A stretch of DNA of 64,000 nt from Amylostereum areolatum (Eukaryota > Basidiomycota > Agaricomycetes > Russulales > Stereaceae): the NCBI GenBank assembly GCA_012932865.1, contig SAXG01000035.1, positions 310,001 to 374,000 on the forward strand, given 5' to 3'. The translations under genes and the position numbers were made by a program. Shown piece after piece: positions 19,537-42,500 of this stretch (the first letter of the stretch is position 1; the number at the start of each line of letters is the position of its first letter). Below the pieces are notes generated by a model. That model saw only the letters and a program-made list of their open reading frames with translations. It had not been told where the DNA came from and made no database searches.

Positions 19537-20288
19537 GTCGAGATTTAGTAGGGGGAGGAGGGTGATGCAGCGAAGAGGCTTAGATACAGTGTATGTGGTA
19601 AACGTAGAATGGCATTGACAGTTCATTGACAGGTTGTGTATGAGATAGGGCTTTGGTGGTGTGACAAGATAGCATCAAAGGAACAAGAACGATTGCAGGG
19701 GAGAATGGGTTGTGACGACCGTGGAACAGGAAAAAGGTTGCAGGTCGGAAACTCAGAGGAGGATGAAACGCACGGTTGTCAACGAAGGGTCACACATTGC
19801 GGAGAACAAGGCCATATTTTGGAAATGAATAGTTCAGGATGGGAACATAAAGAACTGCGACCACGCACCGGTACACCCTGTCTCTCTCTCAACTGGGTCT
19901 TTGTCCTCGTTCGCCTTTCACCGCCGACCGGTGTCCAAACGCTCTGATGACTCGGACCTGTGGAGCCGGTGACGAATTCCTCTTGTGGACGGTTGAGTAT
20001 CCGTATTTCAGTCCTTGACAAGATTCCTCCATGATCCATTTGGTATCGGTCGATTGGGACTCGGGAGTCACAGTGAAATGCTAGAAGATGAAACGTATCG
20101 GAGGAGTTTCGACTCGGAGTCTGGCAGTTGCGCAGCGGAGCTCGGGGGTGAGCGGTCCGTTATTCGGACCGTTCCTGCGAAATCAACGTTTTTCTTACAC
20201 GAGACCCCTCTCTCCCAAGTACAACGCACGAAGACTCCCTCGCTCGATCTACCTGTGCTTCCAATACGTGTAAATCCTCGTAAAGGTC
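19537..20288. promoter_or_regulatory. Shared upstream region of divergent MYND genes C and D
   Basis: A 750-bp interval lies between the two divergent start codons and must hold both promoters. No convincing coding frame or clear TATA box was picked out. Its role is inferred from gene orientation alone. Confidence 0.35.
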
Positions 20289-22148
20289 ATGCCAGACAAA
20301 GGATATAAAGAAGCTTTTCAAATTCTAGCCGAAGACATAGCACAATGCGGGCCAGCAGATAACTTCGCCAGCGCTGGCTTTGACAAGAACACACCTCTGC
20401 GACATCCCGATGAAATGCGCGAACTCTTTCTCGGTAGGGACTCGTCACGTACAGGTAAGTTCACGCTTGTCGAAGCATTGGAAAAATGGACGCTGGCGAT
20501 CAAAAGTCACGGACTCAGACGCAATGGTCCCAACGCGCCGAGTCCGAAGACGATTGCGGAGCTTTTCACGTTGATGGCACGGGTGTACCGCGAGATTCTT
20601 ACCACGAAGAATGTGTTGCGCGATCATATAGTACGTGTGCGTATCTGTCCGCCGAGCACGTATGGTTTAACGTCGACCACAAAGCGCGCCGCGCATGAAA
20701 GCATGCTCGGTATCATGACCCTCATGAACCTCGATGGATATCCGACACTCGAAGAAGCCATGCTCGACCATACCCCGTACATATGGGATGCTCTCTGGTA
20801 TGATCGAAACTTTTTGGCTGGAGGTGACGCCAGGGAGGTGTACCTCGATAGAGCAGACTTGAGGACGTCTCTTTCCGCTGCGCTGTGCAACTTCCTGTAT
20901 CTTTCGGAGACACGGTACGTGGCTGAAAGAGCCGTAATTTATACTGCGGGACTAACACGCTGTTATCAAGTGGACGTAAAGTTTCGCTGAAGAGCCACGC
21001 AGCCCACCTCTCTGTGTTTGGGTGGTTCCACGAGCCGCCTGGGGACTACGACACGGCGAACCGTTTCCTTCCCGTCTTCGGGTCTTTAGCTTCCAATTCA
21101 GATGGACCGGCATCGCTTCAGAAGTTTGCGAAGGAGATTGTCGTCGATTTACTTGGCGTCGAGGCGTTCATACAGCGCGTTCATCGCGACCTTGAGGATC
21201 CGAGTATTGTCCATGAGCCTCTGGCTCGGCGGCTCCAACTCTTTGCCGATCTATCTCTTCACGACGAGGTCAAATGCAAGCTCTTTGCCCTCCAATCATA
21301 CGACTACGTCATCCCATTGGCCGAACGCCAGAAACACAGCGGAAACAATGTTTTGGCTTGGGATATATGGTCCAGGATCGCATGCATCGTTCGGTATGGT
21401 CTTTTCAACTCCTCTCCATTTTCATCACCGTCGTTCATTAACATGGTCAGGGGGTGCAATGAATTTGGGAAGGCGAAAGGATCTACGACACCCATCATCC
21501 TGAAGCACAACATCGCCCGTTTCCTTGCACGGGGTTTTTATCTTTGTTGTGAAGAAACACATTGCAAAGGTCTCAGTACGTCCTCCTTGTATAACTCCCC
21601 GTCGCGTCTTTCAACCGTACTGTTCGCGCAGGACATTGTCTCGCTGCAATCAGCGATTTCACGACGGCTTGCCTTGTTGCCTCTCAGCTTCATCAAAACA
21701 CGCGCAACAAGGTATTTGTCGCCCTCCGACGGGACGCGATGGGAGAATGGTACCCAACCCTCAAGTATCTACTCGCCGTACCGGTACTCCCAGAAGCGAA
21801 AAAAGACCACCACGACCTCGTGGAATCATGGAGGACGTTCGGCGAAGCCTTGACCTTGGACGAAGACCGTGAACGTGAACGCTACGAGAAGGAAACGGCC
21901 GAAGCGAGGAAGGCGGCGTTGTCGGTCTGCGCGTGGAAAGAGTGCCGGTTTCATTCGGAGAAACCAAGCCATACTCTTCATACGTGCAAGGGATGCCACG
22001 ATGTGGCGTATTGCGATCGCCTGTGCCAGATGAAGTTCGTCTATTTGTGTTTTTTTTTCGCGGTCGTGGGTCACTACTTGATGGACTCTTCTACAGAGAT
22101 TGGAAGGAGGGTGGTCATAAATCCCGTTGCAAAAGAATTAAGGACTAG
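20289..22148 (+). CDS. MYND zinc-finger family gene D (apparently intact)
   Basis: The start is ATG at 20289 (M-P-D-K-G-Y-K-E). The helical N-terminal half runs to about 20.9 kb. The exon from 20.97 kb carries G-W-F-H-E-P-P-G and R-V-H-R-D-L-E-D-P. The exon at 21.45-21.57 kb ends at a GTACGT donor and joins cleanly to A-A-I-S-D-F. The last part has L-R-R-D-A-M-G-E-W-Y-P-T-L and a Glu/Arg-rich helix. The finger is C-A-W-K-E-C, C-K-G-C, Y-C-D-R-L-C-Q, then D-W-K-E-G-G-H-K-S-R-C after an intron. TAG is at 22146-22148. All exons join in frame, so this looks functional. Gene E is its nearest paralogue, with an almost identical finger; the two are in tandem, about 580 bp apart, with a lipase fragment between them. 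Confidence 0.8.
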
Positions 22149-22253
22149 TCTTCCGCCTCGACTGCGTTACTATTGCACGGGAAGCGACGGGAACTCTCAT
22201 CTTTAAATAATGCCATTATACTGCCTCTGTGTACATCTTTCTACTTGGTTCAA

Positions 22254-22615
22254 GGAGTGTGAACGTGTACGCGGACGCACTCGTGTCGGCTGGGGTCGGC
22301 ACCGAGACACGCATGCCCCGCTTCTGCGTGCTCACGGACCACGCCCGGGGGGAGATCGTGCTCGTCTTTCGGAGCGTCATGTCCATCAACGGGCTCGCGG
22401 TAGAACTCACCTGCGAGCCCAAGGAATTCGAGCCAGCGAGCGTGGATGCTGAGGAGGAATCCGACGTCGTGCAAGAGGGCAAGGACAAGGACAAGGAGTA
22501 TGCACAGATGCCTGGCTCGCTGCCGTTTCCGACCATGGGCAGCGCGCGGAATTTTCAACAGGCGCACCGTGAGATCATTATACTACAACTTCGCCGTCGG
22601 TATCTAGACGTCTGA
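22254..22615 (+). pseudogene. Fragment of a class 3 lipase (sn1-DAG-lipase-like)
   Basis: The frame reads N-V-Y-A-D-A-L-V-S-A-G, then R-M-P-R-F-C-V-L-T-D-H-A-R-G-E. It continues V-L-V-F-R-S-V-M-S-I-N and V-E-L-T-C-E-P-K-E-F, an acidic linker, and P-G-S-L-P-F-P-T-M. This is the region just before the catalytic GxSxG motif in fungal class 3 lipases as I recall them. The GxSxG Ser, Asp and His are absent: after P-F-P-T-M the sequence loses resemblance and stops at 22613-22615. Upstream there is only a splice-acceptor-like TTGGTTCAAG and no N-terminal membrane region. The piece is therefore a partial gene copy lodged between MYND genes D and E. The identification rests on motif memory only. Confidence 0.5.
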
Positions 22616-22727
22616 CTACTGAGTGCGCCTGACTTCAAACCTGCCTCCATAGCCTCGATCGCTTTGCACCGAATCGTCTCCTTAACCCCCCTACCCTAGC
22701 ACCTCTGCATACTATACTGGATCCATC

Positions 22728-24528
22728 ATGGCTGCGCCCTCCATCCCACTGATGTTTGCGGACAACATAACCAGCGGCAACGGACAGGGAATTGAAGAAT
22801 CCAATCGGAAAGAAGAATTCCACAGATTCCTTCGCTTGCATTCTCTCTACGAAAGGCCCACACTTTCGAACACCATGAAGGCCTGGATGAACGCTTATTC
22901 TGGGCTCCAAGGTGATGCACCCCGCACGGCAGACAAGGAGGTGCTCAACGACGGACTGGTTATCATTGATGTATACACCGCCATAATAACGAACGGGGAC
23001 ATTATGCGAAATGACATAGTGCGTGTTTTTACTCTGACTCGAATATGGATGTAACTAACCATAGCTGAGAAAGGGCATCACATTGCAAGCCTTGGCCGGT
23101 CTCGCAGCCCTCACCCACCTTCGTGGTAACCCCATGCTAGAAGACGCCCTCCTCGACCGCATGCCACTTCTCTTCGAAAGCTTATGGGACAATAGAAGGC
23201 TTCTAGTCCTGGCGCCGTACCGCATGACCATGTGCATGGTTCTGTGGGCGTACCAGGCACTTGCTAAGGACCGGTACGTCCAGCTTCTTCCGTGCTAACT
23301 GCCTATGTCTAACGAATTCACATAGATGTGCCTGGCGTGCCTCTCATAAGAGCCATGCTGCCAGACTTTGTCTGTTCGGATGGTTTCACGAACCCTCAGG
23401 CCGCGACGAAAATCAACGCTCAGACTCGGACAAATTCCTCCTTGTGCTCGGTCTCTTAGGGGACAACACCGAAGACAAAACGGTGACCCGAGAACTTGTT
23501 CACGATGTTGTCGTCAATGCACTTGGTGTTGGAGAATTCCTAGACCGCGTCCACCGTGATCTTAAGGATCCGGATGTTCTCAACCTCGCCCTTGCTCTCC
23601 GCCTCAAACTCCTGGTTGAATGCACCCTCAAGAATGAGGTCAAAAGCCACATGAAAACCCTCAAGTCACACGACTACGCTATTTCTGCTGTCGAGCGGCA
23701 GTGGCACACTGACGAATATTCTCGGTGGACCTGGGATATATGGGCAAAGGGGATGCTAATCATTCAGTGACCTCTCCTTTCTCCATCTCTGAATCAGGTA
23801 CTCGTACTGATGCCGAAATCATGAATTAGACACTGCAACGACAATGGGAATGATAAAAAATGCACAACTTCAATCATCCTACGTCATAACAGCCCCCGCT
23901 TCTTGTCGTGGGGTTTCAAGCTTTACAGCAGGGAGCCACGCCTTCCGAATGCACGTATGTTTTCAATCCAGTATCATCTCCTGCAGTATCCATCGGAGTA
24001 CTGACTATTTGCAGAATCCAGTCTCGGTATCCTCCATGACTTCCTGACGATGGCCATCGTCACCTCTCAACTCCATAATGCCAAGCGTAACAGTGTCTAC
24101 CTCGCCCTCCAACGTGACTTGCTCCCGGAGTGGTACCATACTCTCCGTGCTTTGCAAGCAATGCCAGAAGTCCCTGCGGAGCTGGAAGAGGACCGCAGAA
24201 CGGTCTTGCAGGTGTGGAAAGTGTTCGGGACGGTCTTGAATTTGGACGAAGCCAAGGAAAAGGAGCGCCACGAGAGAGCAGCGGCCGAGGCGAGGAAGGC
24301 AGTGTTGTCAGTCTGCGCGTGGAAGGAGTGTCGGTTTCACTCGGAGAAGCCGAGCCACGTCCTGCAGACGTGCAGAGGGTGCCGTGACGTCGCTTACTGT
24401 GACCGGTTGTGCCAGTCCAGGTTTGTCCGTCGAACCCTTTCGCATCCTCTGTTGTTGATGCTGCTTGTTCCGTTAGGGATTGGAAAGAAGGCGGGCACAA
24501 ATCTCGCTGTAAGAGAATCAAGGACTAG
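22728..24528 (+). CDS. MYND zinc-finger family gene E (apparently intact)
   Basis: The start is ATG at 22728 (M-A-A-P-S-I-P-L). Exons follow gene D one for one: the N-terminal helices, then L-E-D-A-L-L-D-R-M-P-L-L-F-E-S-L-W after an intron near 23020-23064. Next come G-W-F-H-E-P-S-G with R-V-H-R-D-L-K-D-P, and T-T-S-I-I-L-R-H-N-S-P-R-F-L at 23.83-23.95 kb. The last large exon has Q-R-D-L-L-P-E-W-Y-H-T-L. The finger is C-A-W-K-E-C, C-R-G-C, Y-C-D-R-L-C-Q, then D-W-K-E-G-G-H-K-S-R-C, with TAG at 24526-24528. The exons join in frame and no lesion was found. It arose with gene D by tandem duplication. It converges on the large disordered-protein gene. Confidence 0.8.
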
Positions 24529-24705
24529 CCAGACCGCAGGTGTACTTTCCATATACACTGTTGTTCTGTTCGTCGCCACCCTTTTTGCTCGAAAATATAA
24601 GCATACATAGGTTGCAGAAGTATCCACAAAAAAGCCTACTGATACAAACGATATATGCGCGAACAAAATGTATGCAGCCATCCAACCAAACGGTCCAACT
24701 ACCAC

Positions 24706-27700
24706 TCACCGCTCATCCGCTATGCTCGTCCTTGCACCCCCCACCGTCGGCGGCGCCGATTGAGGCATCTCGGGAAGCGGCCTCTGCAAGCGTCCCCGGT
24801 CGCTCTCAGACACGTCCTCGCTATCAAAGAACTTGGCGAGCAGCTTCGTGAATGGACGCGAAAACTTCTTCCAGCAGATGAGGCAGGGATGGCGCGGGTC
24901 GAAGTTGGCGTAGCCCGTGTTGTGACCTGCGTCCGACGAGATGTCAGTGTTTAGTAGAAGGTGACGAAAGAGGAAAGCGTACAGATGGGACAGGCGACGC
25001 CCTCGGGGTAGATGAGAGTTTGGCCGTCGCGCAGGAACGGTCGGCCTTCGACGGGGACTGCAGCGGGGAATGGGCAACTCGCACCCTCCTCGATCGACCC
25101 ATGCTCGTGCTCGTGTCCATTCCCATTCCCATTTCCGCTCCCGCCCGCCTCGCCGCTCCCATTCGCACTGATCCCACTCCGCGTCGAGCTCGCCACGCTC
25201 GTCCTCCTCGACGCCGTCTCGCCCGCACTCCGACCCCCGTTCGTCTCTGCTTCTGCTTCCGCCCTCCTCACCGCGTTCTCGTTCACGGCGCTCACGTTCG
25301 ACGTGCTCGCGGACGCGTTCGTCACGATCCGCCTCAACAACCCGCCCCTCGTCGGTCCCGTTTCTCCACCCGCCACAGACGCCGGCCTCTCAACCCACGG
25401 CGGCACCGCCTGGTCCGTTTGAACGCCTTCCCTTATATCCACCATCGACGCTAGCCTCTCCCTCTCTCTCTCGCCCCCGCTCGCGTTCCTCCCAAACACC
25501 GCTCGCAAATGGTTCCTGAGCCCCGACCCCTCCTTCTTCACCTTCGGCTTCTTCATCTTCGGTCGTGGCGGCAAAGAGTCGTACGACGGTGGCGGGCGGA
25601 CCTGCTGGTACGCGCGCCGGGGCCCGCGGTCGACGGTGCGCTCGCCGATTTGACGATTGGGGTAGAGCATGTAGGCGGGGAGGATGTCGTCGTCGGTGAT
25701 TTGGTAGTCGGAGTCGAGGAGAAGAAGGGCGCGATCGAGGGGGGAGAGGTCGCGGAGGGTGGAGGATGTGATGTTTGGGTTGGGTGTAGTGGTGGTGGAT
25801 GGAGCAGGAGCAGAGGGGAGAAGGGCGGGTGAGCGAGGTGGGGAACCTGGAGGAGGTGCGGCGTAATCTTGAACGGGAGCAGTGGCGATTTGGGGTGCGG
25901 TGGAAGGTTCAGAGGCAGCGGCCGTCGTTGAAGGTGGGATGGGTGCGCTTGGGGAGGTCCAGCCGTCTTCGGTGCTGTCGCTTTCCGTGGATGTATGCGT
26001 CGAGGGCGTCGAGGCACGTGACACAATAACCATGTCTTCGTCCTCCGCCTGCAGTGGGGAAGGTTCTATGGCGGGAGCTGCCTGGACAGCGCCTGCATAG
26101 CCAGCTTCGGAAAAAGGTGATGCCAAAGCCTCTGATGCTTCAGAAACATTAGCATCGTCGGCCAGCTCGAGCGAGAACGACGCGTCCTCGACAGGAGAAG
26201 ACGATAAGCCTCGGGCAACGAGGGCGTGCGGTTCCGGGGCTGGTGCTGCGTTGATATCAAGAGCTGAAATAGAAGCGCCGTCGCCGTCGGAATATGGGGA
26301 GGTAAGGGGTGTCAGATTGGGAGAGGCGAGGCCGCCGTCTTCGTCTACACCTTCGGGACCCTCGTCCTCAACGACTACACGGAGAGCGTCAACCCGGACC
26401 CTTCCTTCTTCTGCTACGAGGACTTGAGGTTTCTGGGTGATGATCGGCGAAGCATCCACTGGAGAAGGCTCTCCCGCCGAAGACGACGAAGACGAGGACG
26501 CGTGCCATCCTGGACTCGTTGGCGCCTCCACAACGCTCGCAGACAAGCTCTTCTGCCCACCCTCTCCATCTTCTCCATCCTCCTCCTCTGATTCATCATC
26601 CTCGTCCCGCGGTTTTGATCGATACTCCGATAGCTGGCGTGGCCTAACGGGGACGGAACCCGGAAGCTCTTGGTGCACCGACGCAGGCGTCCCCGGCGCG
26701 AAGTCCGAAAACTTATCGTCCTCATCGTCCTCCTTTTCGTCGGCAGATTCTAGGAGGCGCTCCCCGCCCGCGCCGTCGTCGGAGGCGTAGTCGCGTAGGC
26801 TGCGGCACGACGAGCAGTCCGAATGCGCGGAGGCGGGTGTATCGGGTACTGTGGCGTACGGCGGGGAGAGCACCGGGGGGTCGACCTCCGCCTCGTCGTG
26901 GAGGATTAGCGACGGTTTTTCGGGCGTGTTTTTCGCAGCGATCGGCATTTTCAAATCCTTGGGGAACGTGGAGGACGCCCGGTGCGCGTCGAACGTCGGA
27001 TCGATGTGCGTCTCGTGGTCAAGTGGCATGTCTTGGGTGGAGCTCGAGTCCAAGCCAAGCGCTTCGAACAGCGATCCGCCAAGGGAGACTTCGGGTAGGA
27101 GGACCTCTTTGAAAGGCTGGATGGCTGGGCTGAGCGACGGGGGCGTTGATGGCCGATTGAAGCCGCGCGCAGGAGCGGGTGAGACGGGGGTATTGTTTGT
27201 CTTGGAGGGTGGACGGCGGGCTTGGTAGACGTCCGGGAGGGGCGTCTCGGGAATGGGCCCAAGCTCGGGACTGGACGAGCGCGACGGAACGAAAGTGACG
27301 TTACGGAACCCGCGACCGACAGGTGCTGACGCGGGAGGTCGATGGACACTGGAGAGGTCGTCGTCGTCGTCAGACGTAGGGATAAAGGAGAGCTGGGAGG
27401 GTCGGATGGGTTCGCTGGGGGGTCTTTGAGCGCGGTGTTTCGGTGCAGTGCTGGGCACTGCGACCTGGATGTCATGGTCGTTGTGAAAGTGATGAGAGTC
27501 TTCGATTGAGGATGACATAGCCGTGCACGGGACGGGCGTCGACGCTTCGTAATCCGTAGGGAGCTGCGTGTCGGCCTGGTAGAGTTGTGGGGAGAGACGC
27601 TCGTCGAAGCTGTGCAGAATGGGATCTGAAGGTGGGAATGGCGTGCTGGGGGTTGGGTCTGCGTCGTCGAGTAGGGATTCGGAAGACGTCTGGGTGAAGA

Positions 27701-27845
27701 AGTGGTTGAATGTGAGCGCGAGTGTGCTCTCGCGGGATGGGGTCGGTGGAGGTGGAGGACGCGTCGAGGACGGACGAGGACCGCGAGGACCAGAGATGGA
27801 CGTTCGGGAAGAGATTTGCCTGGTTGCGACCGTGACGCTGGACAT
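24706..27845 (-). CDS. Large disordered protein with C-terminal Cys4 motif
   Basis: The start is ATG at 27845 (M-S-S-V-T-V-A-T-R). One long exon encodes about 955 residues rich in Ser, Pro, Thr and acidic runs (D-D-D-D-D, E-S-E-E-E-D-G-E), which is typical of disordered regulatory proteins. A P-P-P-S-Y-D motif near residue 760 could bind WW domains and is followed by a basic K-M-K-K-P-K-V-K-K. An intron (24927-24982) splits the C-terminal motif C-P-I-C-H-N-T-G-Y, then D-P-R-H-P-C-L-I-C-W. This is a Cys2-x13-Cys2 arrangement that probably binds zinc. I have seen this Cys4/Trp ending in other uncharacterised basidiomycete proteins, but no function can be assigned. The gene is compositionally distinct from its MYND neighbours. 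Confidence 0.75.
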
Positions 27846-28761
27846 GTTACGAACTCTGGCGTGGGAGGATCAGAAATGATGCGCTGTCGCAATGCGGAAA
27901 TAGACGCACCTTGTTGTCGTCGTCGAGGGCGAGGTGGTGAAGCCTTCAGTACGTTGCAATCGACGTATGTGGTTCCAGGGGAGGAAGGACAGAAGAGTGA
28001 ATGGAATGAAAAAAGGGAAGGTGGCGGCCTCGTTGCTTATTTCATTGCAATTGTGAGATCAGTTGAGCACAGCCTGGGTTTGGGCATCAGAACTCAAAGC
28101 ATGATGCCGGCGTACCCGGGCGTTTAGATGGACGACTCACCATTTTCTCCTCCACCATTTCTCTCTCTCATATTCCATTTCCAAAATCGACCCTCATCCA
28201 GCCCTCCTCCCAGAATCGTATCGATTCCTCCGCTTCGACAGTTCGGAGCCTATCACCCAGCCTGAGACACGCTGCAACGCTGACAAGAGCGTAGAAACAG
28301 TCACGGGATTGCTTGCTGATGACCGTACAGCACAGGTACAGCATCACCAAAGCGAGGAGGAGATGTCAGACCCGATGCGAGCAGGATAGGAAACAAATAC
28401 CGGGCGTACCAACGTCATCACCCAACTCGGTGAGCAGATCACTTGGCGGCCGTGTTCTGTGAAGTTTGAAAAATATGTCTCGATGGCGGTTTGAGGAGGT
28501 GCGCATCATATGGGATGGGGAGTGCGAGGTCGCGAAAGGACTGAAAGCAGGAAATTGAAGGCGGGCGAGAGCGGAGACCGCGGAGGGTTTGGCGAAGGAT
28601 TGGTTCAGAAAAAGTGGAGGCGGATCCGACATAACGATCACGTGATATGTCTACTTACTCAGTTTGACTCACGCGTACGACTGCACATTTTGGGGAACGG
28701 ATGCGATCAAGGCAATATTGGAGCAAACCAACACACGTTTTTGCTAGCTTGCCGAGTGAGC
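27846..28761. other. Intergenic interval
   Basis: About 900 bp between the disordered-protein gene and the 3' remnant of the split MYND gene. Short frames only; no RNA gene or repeat was recognised. The left part must hold the promoter of the gene starting at 27845. Confidence 0.4.
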
Positions 28762-29184
28762 TTAGTTCTTCAGTCGTTTGCACCTCTTCTTGTGCCCACC
28801 CTCCTTCCAGTCCCTACCGAGTGCCAACTCACGGATCAGCCAACTTGTGCAATGCAAGAAGACAGAAACGCACCTTAGCTGGCACACTTTGTCGCAGTAC
28901 CTCGTCTCTTTACACCCTGCGCACGTCCTGAGTGCACCCGCCGGCTTCATCACGTTGAACTCGCACGCCGCCCATGCACACCGCGCCATCGCGTTCTTCA
29001 ACCATGCCCTCATCTTCTCCTCATCCCAATCACTCCGGTCCTCCAGTCCCGCCTCCTTCCCGAACTCCATCCACTTCTCCACCAAGTACACCCGGCTTTC
29101 CTCGTGGGCCGGCGCGACGGATAACGTGCGGAGCGTTTGCAGTGTCGGAAACCACACCTGGCGCGCGTCGGTGCGCAGGATGTA
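28762..29184 (-). pseudogene. 3' part of transposon-split MYND gene (gene G/H)
   Basis: This piece begins abruptly at the left edge of the Plavaka element with Y-I-L-R-T-D-A-R-Q-V-W-F-P-T-L. That is the point where paralogues have, for example, L-A-L-Q-R-D-L-L-P-E-W-Y-H-T-L. It continues through a helical segment to the finger: C-A-W-A-A-C, C-A-G-C, Y-C-D-K-V-C-Q. After an intron it reads D-W-K-E-G-G-H-K-K-R-C, with TAA at 28762-28764. No N-terminal exon lies upstream on this strand inside the element. The missing 5' part is found in the same orientation on the far side of the element (36032-37560). An M-Y-I at 29187 is fortuitous, partly transposon-encoded. Confidence 0.75.
29179..29184. repeat. 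Left copy of GATGTA target-site duplication
   Basis: GATGTA (TACATC on the gene strand) lies at the edge of the MYND 3' remnant and is repeated at 36032-36037. The two gene halves align with paralogues in frame when joined through one copy. Confidence 0.65.
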
Positions 29185-29692
29185 CATCTGTAAAAACCTC
29201 TCGTGCGAATTGGATCTTTTTGGAGGATATTGGACCTAAACGGTGAGTTAGAGGATTTGACGCGTTTAGGAAGGTCCTCTTACTACTGGATCTAATTTGG
29301 CGGCTAATGGTTTCTCAAGACGGTACAATCTTGGTCCAGCCGCATACCAACAGTTATCTCAAACTGATCTCAACAGCATCCAAGCATTTTCTCAACATAG
29401 GTTTGGTTCATTTTTAGATACTGTTGTCCTGCCTTTGTCACGGCTTTTACAGCTTGCTCAGACACCATTAGAGAAACCGGGTATCCATTTTTCATACATT
29501 AGCACGAGGCACGGATTGTAAAGTAAGTGTTAATGCCAAATGAGCGGAAGGGGGGGGATGAAGCTACGGATGCGAGGGGAAATAGAGCGGGGGTGTGCGG
29601 AGCATGAGCGAGAACCGTTGTACACGAACACATATTACGAGAGTCGACTAAAGCGGAAGTAAACGTAAACATAGCGGGAGGGGGACACACAT

Positions 29693-32258
29693 CTACTCAT
29701 CATTATAGTCAATCAAGGCAGCAGGAACACCGGGGGCGGGCAGCACCGACGAAGGGCCCGTTCTGGACAGACAAATGAGTGGAATGGATTGAAAGGACAG
29801 GGAAACAACTTACGAGGCCGCCGTGTACAAACCGGACATGAAGCTGTGGTAGAACGGGGGGCGAGTGTTCTCCATCTCGTTCAAAGTGGCAATATGGCCG
29901 CCGTACACATCCAGGTATGTCCCCGCCGAGAAATCAGACTTGACATGATGCCCGGATCGACGCTCGTGCAAAGATGCGTAAACCTACACAAAGATAAGCA
30001 AAGGTTCATCATATTGGGATCAAACCGAGTTGCTCACCGCCGTGAATGCCAGTGCAACCATTGCCTTTGGGAGCTCGAGGCGGCGCTGGTTAGTTACCGA
30101 GTCGATCGTAAACGGGAACCTATCGCGGAAGCTGTCCGGAATTCCCTTGGCGAAAACGGTCTGGTGAAGAATTGCGATCCCGATTGGGTGACGGTAAGGT
30201 TGACCACGGCACACAGCCCCAGTCAACCCATCCTACAGGATGATATAGGTCAGTAGAAAACCACAGAGAAGTAACCGGCGGAAAACGCACAGGAGAGTTG
30301 CGACGGAATATGTAGTTATAATCCCGGACAGCAAAAGCTACCGCGGTTTGACTGTGCTCCCCTTCAGGAAGCAGGTTGTACATTCCAACAACATGATTGT
30401 CGCTGGATTCCTTGAACCTCAAGCGAAAGATACCAATACGAGCGATGGGCTAGTACAAAATGGTCTGAGAACCGTGCTGCCAGGAAAAAACCGAACCGAC
30501 TTACCAAGGGAATGAGACGGTTGATGTACCCAGGTTCCTGGAGCAAACGACGGTGCATGTCGATACAGACATTGCGGAGAGACGCCGCCCGGATCAGTGC
30601 ATTGCGCGAGAACGTCTCACTGAGCGTCGCGTCGGGAAACCCATGGACTAGAAGGATCTCATATATAATTTGAATGAAAGCATCACGGATTCCAAGTTGA
30701 ACGATGTGCGATTGCACTCGAAGAGACATCCGCTGGTGCGGGCCTCCAAGAACCAAGTTCGTATTCTCCGGAAACTCGCCTCCGACGGCTCCTGCTATTG
30801 CTGGTGGAAGGTTGATCACGCCGGCCGCTAGAGGACCTTCAGCATCAGAGACAAAACGGTCGCCTATGAGACCTAAAATCCGCCAAAGGTATCTCTGGCG
30901 GACATTACCTCCAGTGGTATCTTCGTTGATTTGAACTTGCTCTCCGGGGGCAGCATCGACAGATGCGACAGGAAGACCAGCGGAAGGAGCCGTGGCAAGA
31001 GGAGCCGTGGCAGGAGGAGCCGTGGCAGCGGTGGCAGCGGTGGCGGCGGCGGCGGCGGGTGGAGCGGCGGCGGCGGCGGCGGGTGCAGCCGATGTGGGGA
31101 CAAAATCCGAGGAAGGGGCAGCAGGGAGAGGAGCCGAGACAATGGCAGGGACGGCGGGCAGAGCCTGAGCGGCAGCGGAATGAGCGGCGGCGGGGACATG
31201 AACAGGGATGGCTGGAGGAAGAGGAGCCAAGACCGGGGCGACAGGAGGGACAGCGAACGGAGCAGAGGGACCTGTGTTAGAAGTTGACGGCCCTGCGATG
31301 GCTTGAGAGGTATCGAGGCGGGGATCAATGGGAACCGACGATTGGCTTGAAGACGCGGCCGAGTTTGCATTGGAGAGCCAGGTAGGACGCTATGGTAAGT
31401 AGCCGTTAGCACACTGCACTTGAGGTAGTTAAGAGTAACATACCTCAAGATTCACCTGACGCTGGAATTGCGTTGGGTTCATCTTTGCCAGTTCACGCAA
31501 CTCCTCCCCGTCGTCATCTTCAATTTGGTCGAAATCATCTTCAGAGAGCGGCGAGAGGCCGTTATCGTCATCATCGTCGTTTTCGTCCTACAAACAAGTC
31601 CATGAATCAGCAACTCGGAACCCAATACGAAGTACATACCTCAATCATGGCAACACCTGTGTGACCCGAGGTAACCGCCTTCGCCTTGCCTTTTGTGCCG
31701 TCCACGTAGAGCTTCAGGGCAATGGGCGGAAGCTCGTCCTCTTGAAGAACAAGCTGAGGAGCGCGCGCTAAAGAAAGTGGAACGACGATGTCAGCCCGTG
31801 GGAACGCATGCCATTGAACGCGAACGAACTCACTCTTCCGAGTTTTCGACTTCTTCGACACTGGGCCATTGGCCTGAACACCTTTCCCCCCCTTTCTTTT
31901 CTTGCCCGAAGCTAAACGAGGGAAGTGTGAGAGTTGGAAGACACAAAACAAAGCCAGAAATACAACGTACCGGCAGTACCAGGCTCGGACTCCGCAATAT
32001 CTATTTCAGCCACGGCCCACAGAGCCAGTGGACAAAAAACTGGTAAGTTGTCAGTTACTTGACGGGAAAAGCTATTGACATACCATCTACAGGATCTTGC
32101 TCTCGCTGTAATTGTGCTGCAGCGGCAGCCTTCGACGCCTTGGTGCGAGTGCGAGTAGCAGCAGCCTTCTGCGCTGGCGAGAGCGCCGCGCTGGCAGTCC
32201 CAGAGGCTGACGAAGTATTGCGCCGCGACGTTCGCAACGTTCGCGATTGGTAGCTCAT
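29693..32258 (-). CDS. Accessory gene of the Plavaka element, DUF6532-like
   Basis: The start is ATG at 32258 (M-S-Y-Q-S-R-T-L-R-T-S-R-R). The N-terminal part is basic and low-complexity, with K-K-R-K-G-G-K-G and S-K-K-S-K-T-R-K suggesting nuclear entry. An acidic stretch follows (D-E-N-D-D-D-D-N). Then comes a long Ala/Pro-rich linker (31.0-31.35 kb). The folded C-terminal part starts at R-Q-R-Y-L-W-R-I-L-G and includes I-R-D-A-F-I-Q-I-I-Y-E and E-G-E-H-S-Q-T-A-V-A-F. It ends with L-P-K-A-M-V-A-L-A-F-T-A-V and Y-H-S-F-M-S-G-L-Y. This resembles DUF6532, a domain common in Agaricomycetes, but only loosely by eye. At least six short introns are present, and the last exon ends in D-Y-N-D-E and TAG at 29693-29695. 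It is divergent from the transposase with about 315 bp between starts. It may be a second transposition protein or cargo. Confidence 0.6.
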
Positions 32259-32573
32259 GCCGTTGACGGTGGGGAACGGAAAAGAAAAAGAGGGGAGAAG
32301 GAAAGAGGGAAGACGAAGAGGAGCGAGGATGCCTGTCAACACGGCGAGGTTAGTGTTCGATTATAAGAAGTCCTGCACTGTTTGCTGACATGACCGTAGG
32401 TTTCGTAATAGTGCGGACTCGGAGCGCGAGCGTTCTCACGTCTGGTGGTGTCTTGGTGAGTTTTAGACGGACTTGGTGAATTTAGGCGGCTGACTTCCTC
32501 CGCGCATAGTGAAATTGGATATAGCGCACCTTCCCTCCTCCACATCACAGCCTCCAACGCACGCTGTATCCTC
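32259..32573. promoter_or_regulatory. Bidirectional promoter region inside the Plavaka element
   Basis: The 315 bp between the divergent accessory gene and transposase starts must carry both promoters. No specific box was recognised. Confidence 0.35.
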
Positions 32574-35500
32574 ATGGCGTATCAGCTGCCCACGGCCAAG
32601 GCTTCTGTAGTGTGCAACGGATGCAACAAAAGCTTCTCGCCGCGTGGGCGTACGAACCACTGGAGACAAACTGCGCGGGAAGAATGCAAAGCTGCTCACA
32701 CGGCGTACCAGGCTCTTCAAGAAAGCCTGTTCCCCGGTCTCGTAGCACCGCCGAATCATCAAGTTGCGGAGGGCATGTCAGCAGAGAACACCAGCGTCGG
32801 CGCAGACTACTTTTCGGAAAGTTACACACCTGCTGAACTCGGACTCGACGATCCAGCTGGCACCACTCCCGACGATCCTCGTGCAACTCCTATGGACATT
32901 GACAATGTTTTTCCGGCTCCTATGTCGGTCTCTGACAGGGATCAAGCAACCACGGAAGAAGATGAAGCGGATGAAGAGGAGGATGTGCGCAACTTTGAGG
33001 AGCTCGGACGCATCTTGGAGCCCGTAATCAACCCGAATGCACCCCAATCGGCGCCAGGAGAACTGCCTGCAGACGAACTAGTGGCTCCGCAAGATACTTC
33101 TGGCCGCCTCTTTACACCCGAAGAACGACAACGTGTTGAAGGAAAGCTCTGGGTGCACCCGACGATCGTGCCGTTCCCGAGCGAGAGCGCTGGCACACCT
33201 CTCACTTCAGAGGCATCCGCGTCGCAGTACGACACACTGCGTTCGCATTTGGAATCCGGGAACACGGGAAACATCTGGGCACCGTTCAAGTCGAAACTCG
33301 ACTGGTCCATGGCTTACTGGGCAAAAACACGTGGGCCAACATCAACCGCGGTGTCTGAGCTCCTCCAGATGGACGAGGTATGCATTCAATTGATCACGCG
33401 TCAAGTTCAATGCTCATTTCCCTCTTTTACTTAGCTTGCCGAGAAACTCGACCTCTCGTTCCGCTCGTCGGCTCAGCTCAACAAGATCATCGACGAACAA
33501 CTGCCTGGTCGGCCGAAGTTCATGATGGAGGAGATCCAGGTCGGCGGCGAGAACTTTGAGGTGTACTTTCGCGATATTGTTCCTTGCATCCGCGCGCTGT
33601 ACAGCGACCCTGAATTTGCACAACACCTGATCACGGTCCCGGAGCGCCACTACCAAGATGCCGACATGACGATTCGGATGTACGATGAGATGAACACGGG
33701 CACTTGGTGGTGGAACGTGCAGGTGCTTGGCATCATCTTCTACGGTTCCCTCCTCCGACCTAACATGAATTTTCTCTTCCGCAGACAAGCATCGAGGCAA
33801 AACTCCCTGGCGCAACAATCATCCCCCTCATCATATCATCGGACAAGACGCAGCTCACGCTCTTTCGCGGGAAGACAGCATACCCGGTCTACATGACAAT
33901 CGGAAACATCCCGAAGGACATCCGTCGCAAGCCCTCCCGTCGAGCGCAAGTCCTCATTGGCTACCTACCCACAGCAAAGCTGGACCACATCTCCAACAAG
34001 GCTGCCCGACGCCGTGCAACCGGCAACGTTTTCCATGAGTGCATGCGTCGGATTCTCGCACCCATCAAGGACATCGGAGAAACCGGAATCGCCATGGTCA
34101 GCGGTGATGGTGTTTGGCGTCGCTGTCATCCCATCTATGCTATATTCGTTGGGGATTATCCGGAGCAGGTTCTTGTGACGGCGACACTCTATGGTGACTG
34201 TCCAAGATGTCCGATTCCGCACGCTCTTCTCGGAGAGTACGATGATGACACGGACCTCGATTTCCGTGATGCGGACGATGCATTGGACGTCTTTGAACTG
34301 GCCGATGGTGATCCCACAACCTACCACGCTGCATGTCGTGAGGCGCGCCTCCGCCCTATCTTCCATCCGTTCTGGGAAGATTTGCCCTATGTAAACATCT
34401 TTGCCTCATGCACACCCGATATCCTCCACCAGATGTATCAAGGAGTCATCAAGCATGTCATTGCATGGATTTCGGACCCGCAAGCATTCGGGCCTGATGA
34501 AATTGATGCCCGTTGTCGTCGGATGCCACCAAACCACCATGCTCGCCTCTTCACACATGGGATCAGCTCGCTTGTCCGAGTGTCGGGTACAGAGCACAAG
34601 CACATCGCGCGCATTCTCCTCGGTCTGATTGCAGATCTTCCTCTCCCAGATGGCCGCAGTCCTGCCCGCCTCATCCGCGCTGTTCGAGGAATTCTCGACT
34701 TCCTCTACCTTGCCCAATATCCATCCCATACAGATGAAACCCTTGCGCAGATGGACGATGCTCTTCGACGCTTCCACGGCAATAAATCGATCTTCATCGA
34801 TCTCGGAATCCGGCTGGATTTCAACCTTCCGAAAGTTCATGGTGCACGGCACTACTCGCCAAGCATCGTGCTCTTCGGTACAACAGATAATGGCAACACG
34901 GAGCAATCGGAACGCCTGCACATCGACTTTGCGAAAGACGCGTACAGGGCTACCAACCGAAAAGATGAATATCCACAAATGACGGCATGGCTCGAACGTC
35001 GCGAGAAGGTCAACGCGCATGCGGCGTTCATTCAGTGGCGCTCTTCGGGGCACCCTCCTATCACTTCGGAACGGACGCCAGAGGTGCACCTTCACATGCA
35101 CACCCAGATGACGAAACATCCAACACTCCCCGCCGTCTCGTTCGATCGACTCCATGAACTGTACGGCGCCGTTGACTTTTCCGATGCACTTGCAGCATTC
35201 ATTGTCAAGTGTAACTACCCAGATCTCGGTCCTGGGCCCGCGCGTCACGAAGCTGATAATACACTCATCCCGACCAGACCTATCGCCGTGTATCACAAGA
35301 TTAAGCTCTGGAATCACGACGCTCTGCAACGCGAGGACGGAAAAGACGAGCAAGATGCTGTCCATGTTCGCCCTCAGCGGCGGGACACCCGTGGACGTAT
35401 CGTTCCCGGTCGGTTTGACACCGTGTTGGTTAAATCGGGAGCTGGAGGTGCTCGCGGCGTAGCAGGTGAGCTTTGCTGCTCGTCTGAGATTTCACCGCTG

Positions 35501-35875
35501 ACCGGTCATGACCAAGGCTACCGCGTCGCACAAGTGCGCGTGGTCTTCCGACTATCTGCCAAGACGGCCGACACCGTCTACCTACCCACACGTCCGACAC
35601 CCCCACAACACCTTGCCTACATCGAGTGGTTCACGCCGTTCGCAAAGGAACCAGAAGATGACACACAGATGTACCGCGTGTCTCGTTCCGTGCACAATGG
35701 GCGACGCGATGCCGAAATCATCCCTATCGAAGACATCCAACGGAGTGTCCAGCTCTTCCCGCGTTTCGGTGCGACCGCTCCCCGTCATTGGACGAGCTAT
35801 AATGTCCTTGAGGAGTGTACAAAATTCCGTGTCAGCTCATTCCTCGATCACCATACATACAGGACCGTATTTTAG
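32574..35875 (+). CDS. Plavaka-family transposase
   Basis: ATG at 32574. Three introns are clear: 33378-33434, 33723-33784 and an in-frame one at 35466-35516, giving about 1043 residues, a usual size for the family. Near the N-terminus Cys14, Cys17, His29 and Cys38 form a zinc-finger-like DNA-binding motif. An acidic linker follows. The core has S-S-D-K-T-Q-L-T-L-F-R-G-K, I-G-N-I-P-K-D-I-R-R-K-P-S-R-R-A-Q and the RNase-H-like acidic motif S-G-D-G-V-W-R-R-C-H-P-I. Downstream come C-P-R-C, D-I-L-H-Q-M-Y-Q-G-V-I-K-H, and E-Q-S-E-R-L-H-I-D-F-A-K with Y-R-A-T-N-R-K-D-E. These are hallmark Plavaka signatures. The reading frame is open throughout. It would act on the element ends in the nucleus. Confidence 0.9.
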
Positions 35876-36031
35876 CCCGAGAATCCGTACAATGACAATG
35901 TGTGTAACCTCTAAAAACCTCGGACTTGACTTAGACACCTTTTGACGCACTAGACCGCCTTAGAGGGCACCATCTAAACGGCACGCTAATTAGAGGACCT
36001 TGGCGCGGCATTTGCGGGAGAGGCTTTCCCT

Positions 36032-36037
36032 GATGTA
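36032..36037. repeat. Right copy of GATGTA target-site duplication
   Basis: Identical hexamer to 29179-29184, at the junction where the MYND 5' half stops aligning with its paralogues. Confidence 0.65.
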
Positions 36038-37560
36038 GAAGGTCTTGTCGCGGCGAGGAGCTTGCGAGAAGACCTCGTTGGACACGACGACACGCACGGT
36101 GAGATTGTATATCAGCCGGGAGTAAATGTCTTTCAGGCGCGGTCAGTCGTGACAACGCAAATTCCGACCAGACAAAAGGCGTACCGGATTGGATGCACGA
36201 GTCCTGGACGCAGAGTTCGACGGCGTGCGAGATGAATCTTACAAGGCCATTGCGAATCAAGGCGTCGACACATTTCGAAGGCGATTGTTCCATGCTCCAC
36301 CTATCAACGCGATCATCGTCAAAGGTTCTACGGGCACGAACAGTTACAAAGAGGGAAACGACCTACAGGAGTATGCGGCATCCAAACGACGAGCTTCGCA
36401 CATCCGATGTGCGATCTCTGCCAAGTTCGAGCTTCTCTTCCCTCTTCAGCACATCCATGACGTCATTGTACGTCGCGAGAGCGAGGAATGGACGACGCGT
36501 GTCCGGGTGCAAGCAGATGACCTCCAGGAAACGCAGGAGAGGTGCGAGACCGCATTTGCTAGCACTTCCATCCTTCAGGTCGCGCCCAATGCGCTCCAGG
36601 ATGGCCTCCGCGCCGAATTGGTCGAGGATGACGTCCTTTATGACCCCATGCTTGTTGAGCGCGAAGGATGGGTCATGCTCGAGGTGTAGGAAAGCTACCA
36701 TGAGAATTCCGTGGATCTGGCCTGGCGGGAGGTGATACCAACAGAAAATCGCGAGGCGGGTGGCGAGCCTTTTGATTGGTGAAGCCACTTCGGTTGGGCT
36801 TTGGATAGAGAAGTATGTATCAGTGCCGCTGGTAGGTCTAGTAAAACGATCGCAACGCTCACCTCAGATCTGTGCAATACTGTGTGAAGTAGTATCCCAG
36901 GAGAGTCATAACGAACATATCCCTCAGCATCTCGTCGGGAGCAAAGATACCATCAGTGAGAAGATTATCCCGTCTCTCCCAGAGGTGGGTGAGTATCTCT
37001 CCTGCAGTTTGGAGGAGAGAATTCTTGAGCTCCACGATGCACCCAGCATCCCTGACGAGGATGAAGAGCTATCCAAAAGCGTACAGCGCCAGCCACTCCG
37101 TTCGCAGCCCGTCCTTGTTCCGAGCTTCAATACCGGACAATCGTCCGCAGAAGCGATGAGAATGACGCACCTCTTTGCGCGCGGGTCCAAAGAAACCTTC
37201 AGAGAGAACGAGCCTCTTCCATCCCTCCGCAAGAGCTATGAGGATTTTCTGCGGATCCTCATCCCCCCACTTCAACAACGTCGTGATGGTGTCGTTCCCC
37301 TTCTCCGCCGCGTCCTGCACGATGTCGACCCATGCCCGCGTCAGCGCGTCGACTCCGATGTCGTATTTATCCAGCGTAGTCGTGTCGTATAAATCGCGGA
37401 GATGAAGCGCGGCGAGCGTCGGTTCGAGGATGATGAACAGCTTGCTGTCCCGCGCGGCGCGTTTGAGGAGGCCGTCGACCTGGATGTCGCCCTCTTCACA
37501 TGCGAGCCGTAAATCGTCCATGAGCTCCGTCCAATCCTCTTTGATTGTGGTTTCGTCCAT
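36032..37560 (-). pseudogene. 5' part of transposon-split MYND gene (gene G/H), with in-frame stop
   Basis: The start is ATG at 37560 (M-D-E-T-T-I-K-E-D-W). The N-terminal half aligns closely with gene B, including D-I-G-V-D-A-L-T-R-A-W-V and L-S-E-G-F-F-G-P. After a 47-bp intron (37141-37187) the next exon reads W-L-A-L-Y-A-F-G then TAG at 37069-37071, where gene B has G-Y-L-F. Past the stop the same frame stays aligned (L-W-E-R-R-D-N-L-L-T-D-G). Later exons carry W-Y-H-L-P-P-G and R-I-G-R-D-L-K-D-G. The final exon matches to F-Y-I at about 36035 and then enters transposon sequence, giving a spurious ending at 35990. The MYND finger is missing here and lies 6.8 kb away at 28762-29184. Confidence 0.8.
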
Positions 37561-37822
37561 AATGTGCGCGCGTGAAAGACGTATATGCGAGTGAGGAAGA
37601 GGGAAAAAGGAGACAATGGGTTGTGGACTTGTGGTCGGGAGGCCGGGCCCGGTGAAGCGTCCCGGCCAATAACGTGACCGTGCCGCGTCGTCGACCCTCG
37701 ACTGGCTCGACAACCACGACTGTTCTTCCTTCCCATTTTCTCCCCATCTCCTTCTACGCGTAGTATTATGACGCTCATTGTCCTAAGAAGCCCCGATTTA
37801 TCGCACGCTCGAATCTGCTGCC
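37561..37822. promoter_or_regulatory. Shared upstream region of divergent MYND genes G/H and I
   Basis: About 260 bp separates the two divergent family members, so they probably share regulatory sequence. A possible ATG at 37768 lies in the wrong frame for gene I unless spliced. Confidence 0.35.
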
Positions 37823-39547
37823 GTGCTGGATCCTCGTATCCACGACATCTTCAGCACCTTGGACAGTCTAATCCCAGACCCGGAATACGACCTCGGGCCC
37901 ACCACACAAATTGCCAATGTCCTCTCTTCGCTCATCGATCTATACTGCGACATCATCAGTGCCAATGGTTTCCTCTTAGAACAAGACGTACGTCTCGTGT
38001 TTCCGATTCTATTTTTGCCCTATATAATGTAGATGGAATGATCCTCACAGTCGTGGATATTCCAACCGTTCTCGGGGCTAGAAGCTGTCGCCATACGCAT
38101 ACGTCTTTCTTCAGACGATGTCGTGAGTGCGATAACTGGTAGACTGACGCCGAAGTTATCAAGAACGTGGGATTCCTTATGGACACATCGGTCGCGGCTC
38201 AAGGAGAAGGACCCGATGCTGATTTCGGCGGTTGGAAAGGCGATTGTCTACTATCACCGTGCGATGCTACGTGGGGAAACTTGGTCAGTGCCTCGTAGCG
38301 CATCGCGTGGATAGACCGTCTAACACATTTCCAGTGTCCTCGCATCTGTATTTATAACGATGATTACCCGGGCCGCGCATGTTGCCGTCTTCTGCTGGAT
38401 TTACGGCAATGCTGGGACATCCTGGAGCAGCACCATGTACCTCGTCTTATTCGGATCTGACAAGCCTGGAGAGCACGACCCCACGAGGTGTATCGATCGT
38501 GATGCCTTTTCCGAGGTCGCTGTCGAAGAATATGGCCCATCTGCCATGCTAGAACGTGTTCATGCCAAACTTATGGACACAGACACCATTGACGACGAGT
38601 TGATGAACTTCATCGAATTCTCCTGCACCTTTCTTCAAACAGCGGAAGTCCGCAAGCTCATGGTGAAACAAAAAACCTATGAATGTCTTTTTGGGGCGCT
38701 TCGACGGCAGAAAGAAAGGGGAGGGCGAAGCAAGCGCGATGGATACATCTGGTGCTTTTCCAGCATAATTCTCAAGTGCGCGTCCTTGTAGTCTGGTGCT
38801 CACACTTGTAATTGTACCTTCTCTAACTTCTAACATCCAGGTACATCGTATCCGGAAGTCCCGACGCAGGGCTCGCGAATCATGCGATGATTTTGCAGCA
38901 TGACATGGTCGGCTTCATGGCGCATACTGTGCGCTTGTGCATCGAGTATTCGGACCTGCCATCTGGTAAGTGAGCGTTCGCTTGCCCATAGGGAATATCG
39001 CGTGCCGACAAGCATCTTGCCAGCCTTCCTCGCAGGCCTCGTTTCCGGCCTTGCCGACTTCGCGCGCTATCTCCGAATCGCGTGCGCGCAACGCACCGCG
39101 ATCGACGGCGAGAAGGAAGTCCTCAGCGCGCTGCGCCGCGATCTGCGTCGAGACTGGTTCCCGGTGCTCGACGCGGGGTGGGACCTTCCCCAAACGTGGA
39201 AGAAAGAACACAACAGGGCGTGGATGGCTTGGATCGAACTCGGCATCAAGGCGGGTCTGAAGGAGCCCGTCGAGCGGGAGCGGTTCCACCGGAATGCTGA
39301 CTTGGCGAAGAAGGACGCACGTGCGCATTGCGCGTGGAGGCGCTGCGTGTATCATCGCACGGGGTCGACGAGTACCATGCGGACGTGCGCGGGGTGCGGA
39401 GAGGTTCGGTACTGTGGCAAGGAATGCCAGTCGAGGTATTTATGGCCTGCTGTCTGCTCCCGGGATTTTGCTGACTGCTGTACCGTACCCAGAGATTGGA
39501 AGGAAGGCGAGCATAAGAAGAAGTGCAGACGTATCAAAGCTGCGTAG
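37823..39547 (+). CDS. MYND zinc-finger family gene I
   Basis: The first exon (about 37800-37987) reads L-D-P-R-I-H-D-I-F-S-T-L, but no in-frame ATG precedes it before a TAA at 37784. The true start may be in an unseen upstream exon or lost. Later exons are clean: E-A-V-A-I-R-I-R-L-S-S-D-D (from 38058) and F-C-W-I-Y-G-N-A-G (38.34-38.78 kb) with R-V-H-A-K-L-M-D-T. After an intron comes Y-I-V-S-G-S-P-D-A-G. The last large exon has S-A-L-R-R-D-L-R-R-D-W-F-P-V-L and ends in the finger C-A-W-R-R-C, C-A-G-C, Y-C-G-K-E-C-Q. This is followed by D-W-K-E-G-E-H-K-K-K-C after an intron. TAG is at 39545-39547. The finger is complete. The gene is divergent from the split MYND gene. Confidence 0.75.
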
Positions 39548-42500
39548 ACGTACGGGATTTTCGGGCCCTGCACGACGGGGGATGCTTGCACTGTGCAGTG
39601 GTCTGGCCGTCGCTGGTGGTGCAGCGTGCGTTGAGAGGCGAGAGTCGTGTAAGCGGGTACGCCTTCATCCGAGGACGCCTGCAAGATATTCAAGGATGCC
39701 GTGGCGGGCGTTGTGGTCGAGGAATGAATTAGCTTCGGTCGCCGCGTGCCAGGCGATCCAGAGCCAACGTTAAGACGGATACCCTAAACGTAGATACACA
39801 TGCTCGAGCTCGTCACTCGAGGGCGCCCAGGCCCGGGCCGTGTCGTCTGCTCCGCGGGTCGAAAGCCACGTACAGTACAGTACCGCCACAGGCGAGATGT
39901 GCGCGATATCGATAGCATCTCTTCATTGAGCGCGATACACGGGCGTCCGGGCTGAGCGCGGTTCATCCCCGACCCCCGTTCATTCGTGAGGTTCATCTGC
40001 CAGTTATGAACGCCCGAGCACCGAAGTTCTCCGCACGACACTTAAGTCTTAATGAACGGGAAGAGAGGTCAAGGCGGGATGTGCCAATGACGGGCCGCGC
40101 GGCGAGACCTGGGCCTGTCGCGCGACGCGTTCACGAGGGCGAACTCGAAAAGGGAGAGTGGAGCTCTCGGAACGGTTGAGTTTCAGTACATACTCTATGT
40201 ATATGCGAGCTAGAATTTGTGGCGCATGGCTTATCAGCGTATATCGGACGGCTGGAACCAACATCGATACGCACCCTAGACTCGGAACGCCCGGTATTCT
40301 ACGCATGTACGCGCGGCGCGCGTGGGCGTAGATGGGAAATCTAGATGCGATGGACGTCGGGATGCGCGCGGGGTCTGTATATGGGGAACGGGGCGACGTC
40401 ACTTATGGACGAAGCCTGTGCTGCTCCGAATCCCCGCGGAAACGATCGCGACTAAGTTTGATTTATTCGGCGGGCTGGCGAAGGTAGATGTCGGGCACGC
40501 GCGAGCGACGTCCGACGGGCCTTGTCTTGCGCGACGGAGGGGAGCGTTCGAGGTGGCGAATACTCAGGTTGCGGTTGCGACGTGCGCGTGATCGAGGAGG
40601 TACGACAGCGCCGTCGTGGGGGGGAGTCGTCGGATGAAAGGCGTCGTCGAACGACGCGGGATCCAGTAAAGTTGTACGTTGAAGCAAACCACCGTCGACG
40701 GGTAATTCGCCGACTTTCCCTCTTCTGCACCGTCCCCATATTCCCAGTGAGTCCCCAAGCTGCGACCGAACCCGAGAAAAGCGCACCTTCGCCTCGAATC
40801 CTACACGACGACTTCGCCGCCACATCACGCAGATCTCCTCTCCGCCCTCCACCCATCCATCTCACCACCATCACCCTCTCGCCACCCATCATCGACGCCC
40901 TCGCCGTAACGCGCGTGAACCCGCTCCCCCCGCCCCCGCTCTTCCCATCTGATTCGTCCCCGCAGAAACAAATCTCCTCGATTGGCCGCGTACCCAAAAA
41001 GAACTGCGGTGGCGGTGGCGGCCCAGACAAGGGGTCGTGGCGGGGTCGTGGCTGTGAGATGCCAGGTAGGCTACATCAATTTCAAGGGGTTTGGCTGGAC
41101 GGGAAAATAGCCTTTTTGGGATGTCCCTTCATGTCATACCTATCGCATCATCACATTGACGGCTCGTGCACGTCGACGGTCGTTGCACTGTGACTTTGCT
41201 CTCGAATTGCCGATGTCGAGTGCAATATACACTGACACGGCTTTATCATTGAGTGCTTTTGCTCAGAAGGTCAGTGGTGTCATGCTCAGTGGTGCAAGGC
41301 GGCCGCTGGTGCTCATTAATAAGTACAGTGCGTGCATTATGCGTTGTGCAAGAGCTCGTGGTTGCATTTCTGACAGCCTTGGATGCTGACTTCATGAGCA
41401 CCGGTGTTTTCGACTTTTCGTGTCGCTGCCATTCGCTGTCGCGGGTCGCACTGTCACCCGTCATGTTGCATGATATACGATCCGCAAATGAGGCATACAT
41501 CCTGCACAGAAAGCGGTACGAGGTTGGTGGTTACGGCCTACACCAGTTTTCATGTTGACGAGATCCACTATCTGACAGCTGTCCGTCTATGACCTTCCAC
41601 AAACAATGCTTAGCTGGCCTACCATGGCTACAACTTATGGTGGTGCGGCCTCGGTATCGAAGTAGTACATATGCCGTCTTTCTGTTCTTACCGTGCAGCG
41701 CAAACCTTGTTCACAACGTGTTTACATACCCGTTTATCTCGCGGTCGATGTACTTATCGAAGTCCAGCCCGGTAGCTCGAGCCAGCAGTGTAAGTACTAG
41801 TAGTTTAAATAATCAGCTTGTAGCTCGTGTCCAGCCTGCTACCCCACTGCCGCAAGAGCACTGTTAGCATTCCCTTTATATGCATATCTGATGCGATGCA
41901 CGGCACAGAATTTATTTAAACTATCCACCACCATCTCCGTTTCAGAGCTCAGCCAGAGGAGGTCATCCGCATGACGAGCAAACCATGACATAAATGAATT
42001 TGATTGGCTCTCCAGCGCTCGAGAGAGCCTTTCGTGCCGTCCTAAAATGGCTATTTTCCCGTCCCGCGAGATCCCTTGAAATTGATGCAGACCTTATACT
42101 CAGAACGACTGTCTTCTGAGTAAGGTCAGCCACGGAGACTAGATGCCAGGGGGGGATACCGGGTGCGATGGAGATAGGGTAAAGGGACGCGGGGCCGCAG
42201 GACAGAATTGGAGGCGCAGGTTGCACCCGTCCGCGGTCGATCATTCCAAGGCTAAGCTGCGGAAATGACAGAGATAGGATACGCCGTCGACGTCGACGGT
42301 GGTATCGCTGGCGTAGGTCGGTGTAAAAGACTGAAGTGGACTTGGATTCGCAGACGCAGTCGAGGCGCTTGGAGCCTGCCGAGAACGACGGCGCAAGGCT
42401 CGCGATGCCGTGCGGCGGTATTCATAGCGTTGCTCAGGGACTTGGGGGCCGGTCGGGGTGAGTCTCGCGTTCTGGTGGAAAATCCGGGTGGCGTCTACAG

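Follow-up and report, generated by a model that had tools for sequence, protein, structure and literature searches.

Plant CACTA/EnSpm elements are two-gene elements, consisting of a transposase gene and a gene for a second protein, which acts as an end-binding or regulatory protein. Their transposase is related to that of the Plavaka elements according to Kojima 2025 (PMC12730594), where a PlavakaB lineage of the CMCT clade is described as having 2- or 3-bp target duplications and CATCA..TGATG ends. Heterozygous transposon insertions between the nuclei of dikaryotic fungi are also known (e.g. PMC12129025, PMC12411881).

Here we describe a locus in the genome of Amylostereum areolatum at which a Plavaka-type transposon lies within a gene for a MYND finger protein. 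We consider it very probable that in this dikaryotic fungus exon 4 of the gene is occupied by a PlavakaB-like transposon in one haplotype and empty in the other. According to our proposal, a PlavakaB-like cut-and-paste element would have inserted at a TA in exon 4 on one haplotype, the two target bases TA would have been duplicated thereby, and the other haplotype would have kept the empty, continuous MYND gene.

The element shares with PlavakaB the Plavaka transposase and 2-bp duplications (within the 2 or 3 bp described), and it would fit this lineage. Its termini are CATC...TGATG: the right end is TGATG as described, whereas the left end is CATCT, one base off the CATCA given for the lineage in PMC12730594. 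It differs from PlavakaB in carrying a gene with a DUF6532 domain and, as far as the five pieces scanned with Pfam go, in that no TET/JBP gene was named. With the plant CACTA/EnSpm elements it has in common a transposase plus a second protein; in the window element, however, the two genes are divergent, and the DUF6532 protein is likened to the second protein by analogy only. As in the heterozygous insertions of other dikaryons, the element would be present in one haplotype and absent from the other, here for one gene with an exact empty counterpart.

The stretch analysed ("the window") comprises 64,000 nt of the forward strand of contig SAXG01000035.1 (positions 310,001-374,000; assembly GCA_012932865.1), a contig labelled C112 here; further contigs are labelled likewise. 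A. areolatum is a woodwasp-associated fungus. The assembly searched has 57,130,172 bases in 182 contigs and is probably a filtered version of the published one, since PMC7227769 gives slightly different figures, namely 248 scaffolds with a total of 57.57 Mb in its table and 53.48 Mb in its text.

One gene in two parts

In the window, the two parts of the MYND gene flank the element and share the minus-strand orientation; each junction (29179-29184 and 36032-36037) carries GATGTA.

36036..37560, minus strand: 5' part of the MYND gene, as aligned with its unbroken C56 counterpart (1556/1569 identical)
37560-36863, 36798-36367, 36300-36185 and 36129-36036, minus strand: exons of the 5' part, own gene model
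28762..29184, minus strand: 3' part of the MYND gene with the MYND finger, comprising the remainder of exon 4 (29184-28874) plus exon 5 (28813-28762)

When searched against the 57-Mb assembly at E <= 0.001, each half matched only two places, namely the window itself and C56, and the junction pattern is therefore not a matter of chance. On C56 the matches of both halves adjoin and share six junction bases, so that C56 carries the gene in uninterrupted form. This empty counterpart (C56:941007-942992) contains one copy of the junction bases, with alignments of 1556/1569 and 482/484 identical positions; the match of the 3' part (28762-29184) spans all 423 bases at a rounded 100%, with one difference in the alignment. 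According to our five-exon model, the C56 gene (941047-942992) codes for a protein of 566 aa, in which the zf-MYND domain (PF01753) scores 30.5 bits against a curated cut-off of 22.7. The window fragment, read through the last intron, reaches 18.9 bits and stays below this cut-off.

Among the 7,994 best candidates scored in a protein search for the C56 gene, one relative was found, an A. chailletii hypothetical protein with 522 of 550 aligned positions identical. Most of the non-identical positions (19/28) form a single gap, which the A. chailletii annotation treats as a 57-nt intron; the inner intron 37170-37114 within our exon 1 follows that annotation. After the last intron, the annotated C-terminus of the A. 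chailletii protein departs from our C56 model. Across the insertion point the residues are the same, the joined reading FYILRTDARQVWFPTL being unbroken both on C56 and in A. chailletii. The initial annotation of this stretch, which had proposed a single MYND gene split by a Plavaka element and had given this pre-insertion reading, is borne out in these points: both halves are continuous on C56, and a Plavaka domain (PF18759) lies inside the element. The empty site it wished to see in related strains turned up in the same assembly. It had also held that the split would be refuted by a separate, complete and better-matching parent of either half at another locus; the C56 gene answers to this in form only, being the empty counterpart with both halves in order.

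Additional MYND-like pieces are located in the window at about 10.3-11.0, 15.6-17.5, 17.8-18.1, 21.0-22.1, 23.3-24.5 and 39.1-39.5 kb, and an exon-by-exon profile search detected at least 38 MYND matches over the cut-off in the whole assembly. A literature search found no paper linking MYND and Amylostereum.

State of the occupied gene

37069..37071, minus strand: stop codon within exon 1, in frame (codon 164; codon 145 if the inner intron is removed)
29185..29187, minus strand: outward-facing ATG made up of the three terminal bases at the left end of the element, in frame with the MYND part (MYILRTD...) by translation

At the position of the stop codon, a sense codon is present in the C56 gene as well as in A. 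chailletii. The segment 36032-37560, initially annotated as the N-terminal part of the gene, does represent its 5' part, but it contains introns and, owing to this stop codon, is not an open frame. Translation continued from the 5' part runs into the element and ends after 13 foreign residues, so that even an allele free of the exon 1 stop codon would lack the MYND finger. As judged from the predicted reading frame, the occupied MYND allele is broken twice, by the stop codon and by the element, and we infer that no full protein is made from it. Damage to a splice site of intron 1 in the occupied version was considered as well and ruled out: an in-frame acceptor, two bases beyond the out-of-frame acceptor first assumed, is present in both versions.

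Since an element with CATC...GATG ends terminates in an outward ATG on either side, an insertion may supply downstream host exons with a start codon. At this site the candidate start would be in frame with the MYND finger, a fit that has one chance in three.

Ends of the element and target duplication

29185..36035, plus strand: Plavaka-type DNA transposon of 6,851 bp, CATCTG...CTGATG, with termini taken from the flanks of other copies and PF18759 inside
29183..29184: left copy of the 2-bp target duplication TA
36036..36037: right copy of the 2-bp target duplication TA; for both copies the basis is the single copy at the C56 empty site and the 2-bp rule at 18/22 sites
29185..29210, plus strand: left terminal inverted repeat, imperfect, 19/26 positions pairing with the right end, flanking TA left out
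36010..36035, minus strand: right terminal inverted repeat, pairing with 29185..29210

Among the matches listed, the assembly contains at least 29 left and at least 29 right ends of the element, plus the C56 site. As read from their flanks, the copies of this family start with CATCTG and end with CTGATG; exceptions are C161, which starts with CAGATG, the divergent copy C34b, which ends with CTGAAG, and C50, which is without the last G. Both flanks were read at 22 sites. An exact 2-bp duplication is present at 18 of these, a 3-bp duplication at none, and four (C132, C66a, C13b and C66c) are without a matching duplication. The duplicated dinucleotides vary (TA, CA, GA, TG, AT, GG, AC, AG, CT and TT). 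At C50, outside the 22 paired sites, the flanks are also TA, with the element's last G missing.

Initially, the hexamer GATGTA had been taken as the target duplication, with an element of 6847 bp; the element itself stands, at a corrected length of 6,851 bp. The window does have GATGTA at both junctions and the empty site has a single copy, and from this site alone the 2-bp and the 6-bp reading are not distinguishable, as they give an identical empty site. The other copies, however, end with CTGATG beside unrelated flanks (apart from the one divergent copy and the one lacking the last G), and at 18 of 22 sites the flanks are 2-bp duplications, which assigns GATG to the element. GATG precedes the dinucleotide at only 1 of the 22 sites, the window, so that the shared hexamer is the element's end plus a chance match; in addition, the empty counterparts of four other sites match 98/98 bases with one dinucleotide. 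A 6-bp target duplication is thus refuted by the 2-bp duplications across the family, and we give it almost no credence. By comparison with the other copies, the target duplication in the window is TA, and GATG is the element's own end, matched in the target by chance.

Two versions of one region

The similarity between the window and C56 extends well beyond the gene. Positions 19979-29184 of the window align to C56 951779-942570 (98.84% over 9,213 bp) and positions 36032-41043 to C56 942575-937558 (98.77% over 5,019 bp); farther right, identity falls to 95.9% and 93.5%, the match extending across repeats as far as the compared stretch reaches. Beside the insertion, the substitutions amount to 97/9,213 and 54/5,019, i.e. 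1.05-1.08%. The other large difference is a 1.1-kb insertion near window 41044-42140. It is absent from C56 and has AGATGCCAGG at both ends; near both ends there is also an inverted CATCAATTTCAAGGG, starting like a Plavaka terminus. Tandem repeats at window 45498-47117 and 57995-63035 resemble C56 932300-935900 and confuse the alignment of the two stretches there.

Most simply, C56 and the window contig would represent the haplotypes of the two nuclei of a dikaryon, both retained in an assembly that is collapsed in part; the dikaryotic state of the sample is likewise our inference. They might also be copies of a segmental duplication within one nucleus, with the element inserted into one of them. 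For the MYND gene at 15648-17543 no second copy was found in the assembly, so the doubled region is limited, as a duplication would have it, and C56 ends 2.1 kb past its last match to the window (951780-953860, no match to the window). On the other hand, PMC7227769 reports that the authors removed heterozygous contigs and that 37 of 290 BUSCO genes were nevertheless duplicated, so that leftover haplotype contigs are to be expected in this material. Moreover, an empty counterpart with 98-100% identity lies on another contig for five further insertion sites of the element, and a duplication within one nucleus appears improbable to us.

Near-identical copies of 6.8 kb can mislead assemblers, and two copies on C66 show swapped flanks (see below), which raises the question if the window contig is a chimera joined through identical copies, in which case no such split gene would exist. 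Yet both flanks in the window carry TA and adjoin each other on C56, unlike a chimera of unrelated sites, and the window copy is 6% off the group of near-identical copies. We regard a chimera as very hard to sustain and retain the reading as two haplotypes, one occupied and one empty.

Copies, age and other empty sites

Ten full copies of the element were compared, the copies on C150 and C100 being left out. The window copy differs from the C132 copy at 20 of 6,850 positions (0.29%). Within a burst group of six full copies, pairwise differences number 0-4 over about 6,808 positions (0-0.06%); C34a, a seventh copy, is about 0.7% from this group, the burst group and C34a together are about 6% from the window copy, and C34b is 12-16% off. 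Because of these divergences, the window copy is placed in a small side group, next to a main group that expanded very recently, and as far as can be told from the copies the family is young. Dating the insertion by the 0.29% between the window and C132 copies was rejected, as this value dates the common source of both copies, not strictly this insertion. The value is below the 1.05-1.08% between the window and C56, as would suit an insertion that came after the two stretches had diverged.

Empty counterparts of other insertions were sought with the joined flanks of 16 of the 22 paired sites (the window, C132, C66a, C13b, C66c and C34b were left out). For five of the 16, a contiguous empty counterpart is present elsewhere: at C16, C94, C13a and C7 with 98-99 bases at 100%, and at C18 at 98%. 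C170 gave an 89% match only, and C1b was unreadable within WD40 repeats. For the other nine, no empty counterpart was found in the assembly with the joined flanks; an absent match does not mean a fixed insertion, since most of the second haplotype is probably missing from the assembly.

Two copies on C66 (271006-277817, plus strand; 310831-317649, minus strand) are inverted relative to each other, with swapped flanking dinucleotides (TA/TC and TC/TA). One cross-join of their left and right flanks was found whole at C86:10872-10969 (98/98), whereas the reciprocal join was not found whole in the assembly. The pair represents either a 33-kb inversion between copies or a misassembly through identical copies. 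The copies on C99, C48 and C127 have an identical left flank, and one insertion site is therefore present more than once in the assembly.

Genes of the element

32574..35875, plus strand: Plavaka transposase, 1,060 aa, open (exons 32574-33377, 33435-33722 and 33785-35875, own splice model)
29693..32258, minus strand: gene of the element with a DUF6532 domain, divergently oriented to the transposase; 677 aa in 10 exons (own splice model)

The Plavaka domain PF18759 scores 281 bits in 33764-35872 (curated cut-off 26.3); in the searched exon, the match covers positions 101-325 of the 325-position profile. Head-to-head with the transposase lies the DUF6532 gene, a two-exon piece of which scores 70.1 bits with PF20149. 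Across the assembly, 52 of 60 DUF6532 matches have a Plavaka match less than 12 kb away, and in 50 of these cases the two are divergent; the Plavaka profile search behind these counts scored 123 of 322 candidates, with 98 positions from 150 rows used. Outside the window's family, 27 of 32 DUF6532 matches are near Plavaka and 25/32 divergent, about 4% being expected by chance per match, although the 32 are not independent, as 12 of them have an identical score (25.2 bits) and seem to be copies from a single family.

Searches of the literature for DUF6532, Plavaka and PF20149 found no paper describing DUF6532 as part of Plavaka elements, and the sole paper found with both terms merely lists domains. 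A protein search returned two relatives of the DUF6532 protein, neither with a function. We tentatively suggest, as a possibility somewhat short of even, that the Plavaka elements of A. areolatum are two-gene transposons in which a divergently encoded DUF6532 protein is the regular partner of the transposase. By analogy to the second protein of the plant CACTA elements, it might perhaps be an end-binding or regulatory protein.

Implications

The interruption of a gene by a transposon is an ordinary event, here cleanly documented. The case is unusually complete, as it combines the occupied and the empty version of the site, a family of copies that fixes the ends of the element, and the intact protein of a relative. 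It illustrates that a hexamer shared at a single site can pass for a target duplication when the end of the element happens to continue into the target. It also documents a recently active Plavaka family, with copies in one stretch that are absent from its counterpart. The partner gene is likely the new thing here: DUF6532, a domain of unknown function, is pointed to as the product of a probable transposon partner gene, and this may outweigh the insertion itself in importance.
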